From positions 1,736,001 through 1,800,000 of the forward strand of contig NZ_CP036346.1 in the NCBI RefSeq assembly GCF_014131695.1: a DNA stretch of 64,000 nucleotides, given 5' to 3'. How positions within the stretch are numbered: the first letter of the stretch is position 1; each line of letters starts with the position of its first letter. Source of the stretch: Thomasclavelia ramosa DSM 1402. Lineage in GTDB: Bacteria; Bacillota_I; Bacilli_A; Erysipelotrichales; Coprobacillaceae. The position numbers were made by a program, and so were the translations under genes. Under the pieces are notes generated by a model. It had not been told where the DNA came from and ran no database searches. It was given only the letters and a program-made list of their open reading frames with translations. Of this stretch, positions 12,915 through 28,223 are shown piece after piece.

Positions 12915-12944
12915 AAAACATTGGAAGATACTCCAATGTTTTTT
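12913..12944. terminator. Bidirectional terminator between asnA and the 12,943-13,182 gene
   Basis: AAAAAACATTGGA (ending 12925) pairs with TCCAATGTTTTTT (12932-12944) around a six-base loop. A/T runs on both sides let it work for both converging genes. Confidence 0.9.
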
Positions 12945-13182
12945 AATTATGACGATAATAGTCACATAGGTATTCTTTTGCAGCAGCTTTACCAATTGAT
13001 TTATCTACATCATTTCCAGTTAAATATATAATTGCATCATGCCATTCTTTCATACTATAATCATCAACATTTAAAGACAGAATTGCAGAATACAATACAT
13101 CTTTACCAACATACCTTAAATCAGAAATAATCATACAATTTGTAATATTTCTTAATTGACCTAATAACTCTTCTTTTTCCAC
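12943..13182 (-). CDS. Small acidic hypothetical protein downstream of an invertible segment
   Basis: I place the start at the GTG complementary to 13180-13182 because GAGGGG lies 7 bases upstream; a TTG at 13197 would have no ribosome site. The protein is then 79 residues, soluble, acidic, with no membrane segment or recognisable motif, ending in CDYYRHN. Its only upstream promoter candidate (13275-13303) lies inside the segment bounded by recombinase-type inverted sites, so its expression may depend on the segment's orientation. I do not know its function. Confidence 0.6.
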   Translation of the reverse strand: MEKEELLGQLRNITNCMIISDLRYVGKDVLYSAILSLNVDDYSMKEWHDAIIYLTGNDVDKSIGKAAAKEYLCDYYRHN

Positions 13183-13220
13183 TTCTGTACCCCTCAATAT
13201 CTTATTAAATATATATTATT

Positions 13221-13246
13221 TACCACATAACACGTATTATGTGGTA
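13221..13246 (+). repeat. Inverted recombination site, left (IRL)
   Basis: A 26-base site built like a tyrosine-recombinase target: ten-base arms TACCACATAA and TTATGTGGTA that are perfect reverse complements, flanking a six-base core CACGTA. The right copy at 13455-13480 is its exact reverse complement, with core TACGTG, so the two sites are in inverted orientation. Confidence 0.85.
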
Positions 13247-13454
13247 TTGATTAACAAAATATTCTCTGAATATCATTTTACATCATTAAGTTAATTTTAA
13301 CAAGGAATTTGAAATATTATTAACAGCATTTTTATGGAATCTCGGACAATTATTTCTTTTTCTAAAATATATTTTTTAATATTTTAAAATTTATTCACAC
13401 TTAAAGAACTCAATTTTAATTTTAAGTGTTTTGCAGTGTTATTTTTATAGTAGT
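13247..13454. other. Predicted invertible DNA segment (phase switch)
   Basis: These 208 bases lie between two inverted 26-base sites and next to a tyrosine recombinase gene. They encode no protein. They hold a leftward promoter pointing at the 12943-13182 gene and an internal inverted repeat (CACTTAAA/TTTAAGTG, about 13399-13430). In the opposite orientation the promoter would point at the 3' end of the recombinase gene and away from the small gene. This is the layout of a phase-variable promoter. Confidence 0.7.
13275..13303 (-). promoter_or_regulatory. Promoter within the invertible segment
   Basis: TTGTTA (13298-13303) and TAAAAT (13275-13280) on the minus strand are separated by 17 bases. 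It would drive the 12943-13182 gene in the orientation present here. Confidence 0.6.
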
Positions 13455-13480
13455 TACCACATAATACGTGTTATGTGGTA
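13455..13480 (-). repeat. Inverted recombination site, right (IRR)
   Basis: Exact reverse complement of the 26-base site at 13221-13246. It begins 25 bases beyond... to the left of the recombinase stop codon (13 bases of spacing to 13494), placing site and enzyme side by side. Confidence 0.85.
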
Positions 13481-13493
13481 TTTGATTTTTATT

Positions 13494-14354
13494 TTAATTA
13501 TTTTTTCGGTTAGAAAATACTAGATCCATCTGATCAAAATATCTTTTAAATTCACGACCACTTGACATTGTATAAATACGAGTAGTGTCCATACTTGAAT
13601 GTCCTAATAAATCTGCTAAACGTGCAATATCTTTTTTTAAATTATAGTAAGTAACCGCAAAAAGATGACGTAAATTATGAGGATAAACTTTACTGCGCTC
13701 AACCTTAGCATCATCACACAAATCTTTCATCGCTTTCCAAATATTACTGCGATCTAACGGTCTTCCGCTTCTGGTTACAAATATTGCCCCATTTTCAATT
13801 TTATTTTTATGACAATATTTTAATAAGATTCTTTTTAGATCATCACTAAAAAAAATTTCTCTTACTTTTCCTTTATTATATATTTGCGCATACCCATCCT
13901 TAAGTGCTTGGACTGTAATGTATCGATGTTCGCTAACACGTATTCCAGTTGAGCAAATTGCTTGCAGTAAAACATATAGACGCTCGTTTTTTTGCTTTCG
14001 GGCAGCATTAACTAATCGTTTATATTCATCTTTTGATAGTTCTTTGCTTTCTTCTAAAAAAACTCTTTTTTGAATTTTTAGTTCTTTGATTTTACATTCT
14101 AGCCAACCATTATATTCAAAAAACTGATTTAATGCTGCAAGCATACTATTTATGCTAGTAGGCTTATATGATTTCATTAATTCTTCTTTATATAATTTAA
14201 CTAATTCCTTGGTAACTTCCTTTTTATCCGCATATTGATAAAATTTTTCAATATCCCGTATATATTTAGTTATTGTTGCTAAACTTTTTTCTTCATCAAT
14301 TAGATGATTTTTGTAATTAACGATTAATTTTTGATTTATTTCTCTTTTATTCAT
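13494..14354 (-). CDS. Tyrosine recombinase (XerC/D-like DNA invertase)
   Basis: The 286-residue protein has an N-terminal SAM-like core-binding domain (about 1-90, SLATITKYIRDIEKFYQYA) and a complete catalytic domain. Active-site residues are R139 (STGIRVSEH), K163 (NKGKVREIF), H226 and R229 (PHNLRHLFA), H252 (LGHSS) and the nucleophile Y261 (TRIYT). The size and lack of an arm-binding domain fit simple recombinases that control phase variation rather than phage integrases. It is adjacent to two inverted 26-base dif-like sites (13221-13246, 13455-13480), which are its likely substrate. No phage or ICE genes flank it. Confidence 0.92.
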   Translation of the reverse strand: MNKREINQKLIVNYKNHLIDEEKSLATITKYIRDIEKFYQYADKKEVTKELVKLYKEELMKSYKPTSINSMLAALNQFFEYNGWLECKIKELKIQKRVFLEESKELSKDEYKRLVNAARKQKNERLYVLLQAICSTGIRVSEHRYITVQALKDGYAQIYNKGKVREIFFSDDLKRILLKYCHKNKIENGAIFVTRSGRPLDRSNIWKAMKDLCDDAKVERSKVYPHNLRHLFAVTYYNLKKDIARLADLLGHSSMDTTRIYTMSSGREFKRYFDQMDLVFSNRKNN

Positions 14355-14469
14355 CTATAATAATCTCCTTAATCTCAATAATCTAATATAAAATAATAAC
14401 ATATACATCTCATATTATTAAATAAATCATATATATTATTGGATTTTTTACGAAAAATAAACAAACAAA

Positions 14470-14500
14470 AAGAAGAAGTAATTTATCTTTACATCTTCTT
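14470..14500 (-). terminator. Intrinsic terminator of the Cof-type hydrolase
   Basis: AAGAAGAAGTAA (14470-14481) pairs with TTACATCTTCTT (14489-14500) with one mismatch. Read leftward it ends in TTTTTGTTTG. It overlaps the stop codon of the upstream gene. Confidence 0.7.
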
Positions 14501-15312
14501 TATTCAAACATCTTTTTTTTACTTATATACCAGTCAACTACCTCTAATACACCATGTTCCTCATTAGAGGAAATTGTGTAATCCGCAATTTTCTTAATTG
14601 CTTCTTTTGCATTTGCCATGGCAAAACCATATGTAGCCTGCTCAAGCATCTCTAAATCATTACCACTATCCCCAAATGCCATTGTTTCGGCATCACTAAT
14701 TTTCCAACGTTCCATTAACAGGTTAATTCCATGTGCTTTATTAATCCCAGGGATAATCAAATCAATTCCAAAATGTCCACAATCAACTGGTGTCATAATA
14801 TGTCCGATCTTCTCTTTCAATTCTGTTAAAATCGTTTCAAAATTATCTTTTGAACAATGCAGATATATCTTAAAAATAGTATCATCAAAATCATCAAAGT
14901 TATCTACTTTAGCAAGACGATGATAGTAAAAGTTCATTGTATTATAAAAATCTTCATCTATGTATTTACTAATATAAGCACTTTTTCGACCACAGACAAT
15001 TTTTTCTACTTCAGGATATTGATTAACTACCTTTAAAACTGTCTGAATATCCTCTTTTGCAAGTTTTGCAACAAAAACATCTTTTCCTTGATCAACGATA
15101 TAAGCTCCGTTTTCAGCAATGAAAGCTAACTCGTTATGAATATCTGGAAAAAAAGATCTTAGTTGATAATATTGATTCCCACTAGCAACTACAAAATGAA
15201 TTCCCTTTTCCTTCATAAATTCGTATTGCCTCGTAAATCGTTCTTGATCATATTCATTATTATTTGTTAAAAAAGTTCCATCCATATCTACTGCTATTAA
15301 TTTTACATTCAT
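14500..15312 (-). CDS. Cof-type HAD-family phosphatase
   Basis: The 270 residues carry all HAD type IIB marks: AVDMDGTFLT (nucleophile Asp near residue 9), VVASGN near 42 (motif II), GINKAHGINLL near 189 (Lys of motif III) and MAFGDSGNDLEML near 213 (motif IV). Family members are cytoplasmic Mg-dependent sugar-phosphate or flavin phosphatases. It is monocistronic, with a terminator at its end and a GGAT-type site. The substrate is unknown. Confidence 0.93.
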   Translation of the reverse strand: MNVKLIAVDMDGTFLTNNNEYDQERFTRQYEFMKEKGIHFVVASGNQYYQLRSFFPDIHNELAFIAENGAYIVDQGKDVFVAKLAKEDIQTVLKVVNQYPEVEKIVCGRKSAYISKYIDEDFYNTMNFYYHRLAKVDNFDDFDDTIFKIYLHCSKDNFETILTELKEKIGHIMTPVDCGHFGIDLIIPGINKAHGINLLMERWKISDAETMAFGDSGNDLEMLEQATYGFAMANAKEAIKKIADYTISSNEEHGVLEVVDWYISKKKMFE

Positions 15313-15411
15313 ATTTACATCCTTTCCATCTTTCGTTATAACGTGACGTATCTTTATATAACTTAGTATATATTGTTTATAAAAAGATTGTAGATTATTT
15401 CATAAAATGAA

Positions 15412-15436
15412 AAAATGACTGGAAACCAGTCATTTT
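15412..15436 (-). terminator. Terminator of the purine operon
   Basis: AAAATGACTGG (15412-15422) and CCAGTCATTTT (15426-15436) form a perfect 11-base stem with a three-base loop just after the purB stop codon, followed leftward by TTCATTTT. Confidence 0.9.
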
Positions 15437-15439
15437 CTA

Positions 15440-28118: not shown

Positions 28119-28167
28119 AAAAAAGAGCCTACACTCGTCCAGACTCTTGCCCAGACGGTCGGCTCTT
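28119..28167 (-). terminator. Riboswitch-controlled terminator
   Basis: AAGAGCC and GGCTCTT (28161-28167 and 28123-28129 on the plus strand) pair across the aptamer's 3' conserved region and are followed leftward by TTTTTTA. The stem competes with the ZTP pseudoknot. Confidence 0.85.
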
Positions 28168-28217
28168 ACATGATTATACTCCCTGTGGTTAATTCCACTT
28201 CCGTCAGTCGTATAACT
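28119..28217 (-). promoter_or_regulatory. ZTP riboswitch (pfl motif) controlling fhs-pur
   Basis: Read on the minus strand this leader has the pfl aptamer order. P1 is TTATAC (28210-28215) with GTATAA (28174-28179). Inside it are CGACTGACGGAAGTGG, a hairpin GTGG/CCAC (28185-28198) and ACAGGGAGTA. The conserved 3' part is GACCGTCTGGGCA, close to the consensus CCGCCTGGGCA. The 3' aptamer segment overlaps a terminator stem, so ZTP binding should prevent termination and turn the operon on when formyl-folate is short. Confidence 0.88.
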
Positions 28218-28223
28218 ATTTGC

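Follow-up and report, generated by a model that had tools for sequence, protein, structure and literature searches.

The 64,000-nt stretch of Thomasclavelia ramosa DSM 1402 analysed here (the window) probably encodes a working DNA inversion switch that acts in cis and has the gene of a small helical protein as its target; on the strength of sequence comparisons, the probability of this reading can be put at roughly 0.8. At its centre, a 208-bp segment with a pair of inverted sites lies between a tyrosine recombinase gene and the gene of a 79-aa protein. The first-pass annotation of this DNA had proposed precisely such a recombinase-linked switch aimed at the small gene, and comparison supports it strongly: relatives of the recombinase carry site pairs of the same type, natural inversion is seen between two of them, one further locus repeats the arrangement, its small gene being a homologue, and inverted site pairs of a different kind stand before other members of the small family. 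Judged from sequence, this family is repeatedly found behind predicted inversion switches of two unrelated recombinase classes.

The switch locus

The distal site (13221..13246, TACCACATAACACGTATTATGTGGTA, core CACGTA) and the proximal site (13455..13480, TACCACATAATACGTGTTATGTGGTA, core TACGTG), neither assigned to a strand, are exact reverse complements of each other, each being a 26-bp palindrome with perfect 10-bp arms around an asymmetric 6-bp core, just as the first reading had described them. They enclose, in inverted orientation on its two sides, the predicted invertible segment (13247..13454, no strand assigned, 208 bp, ~19% G+C). As an inverted pair the window sites score 25.8, whereas the upstream regions of 286 control genes reach at most 14.5. 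A scan allowing up to 3 mismatches finds the 26-bp site in only these 2 copies in the complete genome of 3,247,604 bp, and an exact search of IMG/VR for the window site returned zero matches. A third, single dif-like palindrome, 1 mismatch away from the degenerate site pattern, is present at G000:C1:827817-827838.

The presumed invertase is a 286-aa tyrosine recombinase encoded on the minus strand (13494..14354), the stop codon of which lies 13 bp from the proximal site; recombinase, segment and small gene share one direction. The protein is intact, with a Phage_integrase match (E 1.2e-26) and an N-terminal SAM-like domain, and R139, K163, H226, R229, H252 and Y261 are not only all present but invariant across a 12-sequence alignment of the window recombinase and eleven relatives. 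Domains, residues and spacing thus agree with the earlier description of a complete enzyme starting 13 bases from a site. Models of XerC, XerD and XerA give at best 136 bits against cut-offs of 220-335, so that the recombinase resembles these proteins while falling far below their thresholds. Its relatives occur in 15 of the 315 genomes of the order, the window genome counted, and also in Clostridia MAGs, gut megaplasmids and IMG/VR contigs; none was found in eight other genomes of the genus.

The candidate target gene (12943..13182, minus strand) begins with a GTG at 13182, 38 bp past the distal site, and is preceded by a Shine-Dalgarno sequence recognised from the sequence, GAGGGG (13190..13195, minus strand). 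It is the sole candidate target within a block (12915..15439, no strand assigned) made up of the small gene, the switch, the recombinase and a HAD hydrolase. In three sibling species asnA leads straight into purB (95-97% identical protein) and the entire 2.5-kb block is missing, which indicates that all of it came or went together. The HAD hydrolase occupies 14500-15312 on the minus strand. Elsewhere in the window, the sole Rfam match is a ZMP/ZTP riboswitch (RF01750, 59.7 bits) at 28142-28221 on the minus strand.

The promoter that the first-pass annotation had placed in the segment, TTGTTA-N17-TAAAAT (13275..13303, minus strand), does exist on that strand, reading from 13303 to 13275, but such weak matches are not above chance in this AT-rich region, where 10 promoter-like matches were found against 13.4 expected from shuffled sequence. 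The named promoter should therefore carry no weight. A weak alternative in the same direction, TTAATA-N18-TAAAAT with a TG before the second hexamer, lies at 13294..13323 (minus strand), and scans of all segments gave candidates that point both ways without a clean assignment of ON and OFF.

Site pairs and inversion among relatives of the recombinase

Conservation of the site pair beside the recombinase, on which the first reading had staked its proposal, was found in about 20 relatives (41-57% identity), all of which bear the same type of pair just 3' of their stop codon. Relatives with enough downstream sequence mostly have an ACMACATAAT-N4-ATTATGTKGT-like site within ~60 nt of the recombinase stop, with the second site 205-440 nt beyond the first and the segments equivalent to that of the window measuring 181-387 bp. 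The central bases vary by locus (GAGT, TGTG, TATC, TCGC, GATG, CGAT and others), while at every locus scored for cores the core of the second site is the reverse complement of that of the first. Because cores are reverse-complementary within a locus, as strand exchange requires, inversion rather than excision is predicted. This rule, by which cores differ across loci and match inside a locus, allows further switches to be found by sequence alone. At the locus of the closest relative (L041, 57%) neither a recognisable site pair nor a small gene lies behind the recombinase, and at L044 a site pair was likewise not recognised there.

A natural inversion can be read from a comparison of L123 with L133, IMG/VR contigs that stem from separate metagenomes and whose recombinases are 49-55% identical to the window protein. 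Their flanks are collinear, with 72.6% identity at the recombinase end and 77.3% downstream of the distal site, whereas the piece between the sites aligns in reverse only (70.5%, E 2e-24). This flipped segment indicates that the family of the window recombinase inverts DNA. Two other pairs of loci are uninformative on inversion, L123 and L124 being identical and L127 and L134 sharing one orientation. Contig ends also cluster just past the recombinase stop: of those no more than 400 bp away, 9 are on the switch side and 2 on the other (p 0.03), a pattern suggestive of mixed orientations at assembly, though some of these ends are virus-calling boundaries.

Beyond the distal site the relatives usually have a co-oriented gene with its start nearby. 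Most of their switches face genes for surface proteins, with VWA, Cna_B, FctA/pilin, LRR, camelysin/TasA-like or S-layer proteins among the products, and at some loci the product is instead a LytTR regulator or an EAL-domain protein. The earlier remark that no surface operon adjoins the switch is right for the window locus, although it does not describe most relatives. At L004 (5182-6477) the gene that a related switch faces encodes an EAL-domain protein, and at L042 (8348-9157) a LytTR regulator, suggesting phase-variable signalling rather than control of surface proteins. On the conjugative megaplasmid pMM59_01 of Pusillibacter faecalis (L173, 5551-8843), a related recombinase lies directly upstream of a large S-layer-homology protein, and in a Lachnospiraceae MAG (L003, 563-2504) two different tyrosine recombinases stand in tandem before glycosyltransferase-like genes.

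The small protein family and its switches

The 79-aa reading frame is genuine, and homologues of it exist; a profile of the family detects members in 20 of the 315 genomes of the order, with three further copies in the window genome. In keeping with the initial description of the target as an unknown protein, Pfam, NCBIfam and PHROGs yielded no family match beyond a scatter of weak hits, none of them in more than two members. An AlphaFold2 model of the protein is all-helical with a pLDDT of 93.8; fold searches with it returned nothing significant (Foldseek E above 1), an absence of match that is itself uninformative. Since the protein is small, soluble-looking and helical, and genes of the family have surface-protein genes as neighbours at L062, L063, L099, L105 and L117, we favour the reading of it as a cytoplasmic regulator or adaptor, for which on/off heterogeneity would be advantageous.

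One locus, L056 (in G051), reproduces the order seen in the window: a site pair comes after a 41%-identical recombinase, and a homologue of the small gene lies 17 nt past the pair. Other members of the small family have a different inverted pair, built on the half-site TAAAGT with a 2-bp core of AA, GT or CT; its cores are reverse-complementary between the two sites, which are 93-150 nt apart, and the distal site precedes the start codon by 17-52 nt. Serine recombinases typically have cores of 2 bp, and a serine recombinase gene adjoins the small-family gene at five loci (L061, L101, L102, L111 and L116). Pairs of the TAAAGT type score above threshold at 9 of 28 small-family members as against 0 of 443 control genes (Fisher p 2e-12). 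The half-site matrix behind this count had been derived by eye from the same loci before the test, and for that reason control genes were used and each locus was scored with itself and its close relatives left out. At roughly half of the members examined, a switch was not recognised.

Inversion can be read here as well. In two congeneric species (G034 and G033), orthologous small genes at L064 and L067 lie in collinear DNA of 78% identity, within which the segment between the sites is inverted (L064 6410-6465 vs L067 3383-3438; 94.6% over 56 nt, E 1e-19). At both loci the small gene follows a predicted extracellular-sensor-like gene. Two paralogues in the window's own genome, L061 (6624-7723) and L116 (3889-5744), at C1:1249 kb and C1:643 kb, stand behind serine recombinase genes with apparent inverted sites of AG/CT core; both were read by eye and are outside the count of 9 of 28, and at L116 extra short ORFs intervene between the serine recombinase and the small gene. 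In genome G000, one copy of the family carries a tyrosine-type switch and one copy, or probably two, a serine-type switch.

In light of this, the family of ~80-residue helical proteins in Erysipelotrichales-like gut Bacillota may be a dedicated phase-variable regulator, repeatedly placed under inversion control by tyrosine or serine recombinases and with several differently switched copies in one genome, a proposition to which we give about even odds. The usual view of inversion switches is that they control surface antigens; in the present case, what is conserved is a small protein that lacks annotation. That its genes have taken on inversion control from two unrelated classes of recombinase suggests that on/off heterogeneity of the protein is under strong selection, and the family, of which one genome holds several switched copies, offers a defined set with which to find what it regulates.

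Proposed mechanism and alternative explanations

In the mechanism proposed, the recombinase encoded at 13494-14354 (minus strand) would bind both 26-bp palindromic sites and exchange strands within their oppositely oriented 6-bp cores, so that the 208-bp segment would flip reversibly. The segment would carry the promoter of the 79-aa gene: in one orientation the small gene would be transcribed (ON), and in the other the promoter would face the 3' end of the recombinase (OFF). Flipping of the window copy itself is predicted by analogy with its relatives, a working promoter is presumed to lie inside the segment, and the assembled orientation would be the ON state. The small gene is the likely target because the gene order at L056, the serine-type pairs at other family members and the inversion between L064 and L067 all point to it.

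The main rival, which we consider unlikely, accepts that the segment inverts and makes the small protein an accessory factor of recombination, for instance one that biases its direction, such that the switch would regulate its own flipping. Such a role would fit the adjacency of a recombinase gene to 7 of the 28 examined small-family genes, with two unrelated recombinase classes involved, the want of another candidate target in the window block, and a weak, non-significant likeness of the predicted fold to the SAP-like nucleic-acid-binding domains of DEK and 3'hExo (Z 3.1-4.3). However, the partner of most relatives of the recombinase is a surface or regulatory gene, without a small protein, many small-family genes have no recombinase gene in their vicinity, and it would be surprising for a single family to assist tyrosine as well as serine recombinases.

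Regulation of the recombinase gene itself, through an antisense promoter or a terminator at its 3' end and with the small gene as a bystander, is improbable. A flipped promoter would indeed fire into the 3' end of the recombinase, the segment being so close to its stop codon, but in relatives the distal site is usually followed at a short distance by the start of a co-oriented gene, and some small-family loci without a recombinase gene still bear inversion sites.

It is very improbable that the sites are static, whether as remnants of a decayed switch or as palindromes kept for transcription termination or autoregulation of the recombinase. Such a state would explain that the one assembly shows the segment in a single orientation, that a terminator-like hairpin is scored at the proximal site on the plus strand, and that the site folds as a hairpin within the 5' leader; the intact catalytic residues, the exactly matched sites, the coordination of cores across loci and the natural inversion in relatives stand against it. 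Least probable of all is that the recombinase is a mobile-element integrase or Xer-type resolvase acting on attachment or dif-like sites, as its Xer-like sequence and the missing block in sibling species might suggest, since the inverted sites lie 208 bp apart without cargo between them, the Xer scores are far below cut-off and the change between relatives is an inversion, not an insertion. The integrase or dif reading was dropped.

Comparison with known systems

A parallel might be struck with the RecV-type phase variation of Clostridioides difficile, known from cwpV, the flagellar switch and pdcB/pdcC. There, too, a tyrosine recombinase inverts short upstream segments, as proposed for the window, and among relatives of the window recombinase, too, some have a switch in front of a LytTR regulator or an EAL protein. 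The switches on which RecV acts, the flagellar one among them, are located elsewhere than the recombinase gene (PMC7446863), whereas here each recombinase adjoins its own switch.

In the Mpi/Tsr-type invertons of Bacteroides, a site-specific recombinase inverts a promoter, often one for surface structures. As for XerC/XerD-dif, the arms of the window site resemble the XerD half of dif. The recombinase is Xer-like, yet it falls below the XerC and XerD cut-offs, and two inverted sites lie beside it. Mpi is cited in PMC11892184; its type differs from the window locus in site motif and genomic arrangement, the window locus having a single local switch, with a small gene as its one target.

The closest published example comes from the hCom2 gut community, where inverton group 139 with invertase group 35 is Clostridia-dominated and lies next to a tyrosine-type recombinase, and where an inverton of Clostridium sp. 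D5, with 26-bp repeats and ~205 bp between them, changed orientation across passages (PMC11892184). The likeness is one of geometry and linked recombinase; the text names neither Erysipelotrichales nor Thomasclavelia, and its accessible passages describe no small helical protein target (PMC11892184). The literature searched holds no description of the small target family or of its capture by two classes, which is weak evidence of absence. Inversion of the promoter type, carried out by a linked tyrosine recombinase, is of a known kind; the novelty lies in the target family and in the fact that two classes of recombinase have captured it.
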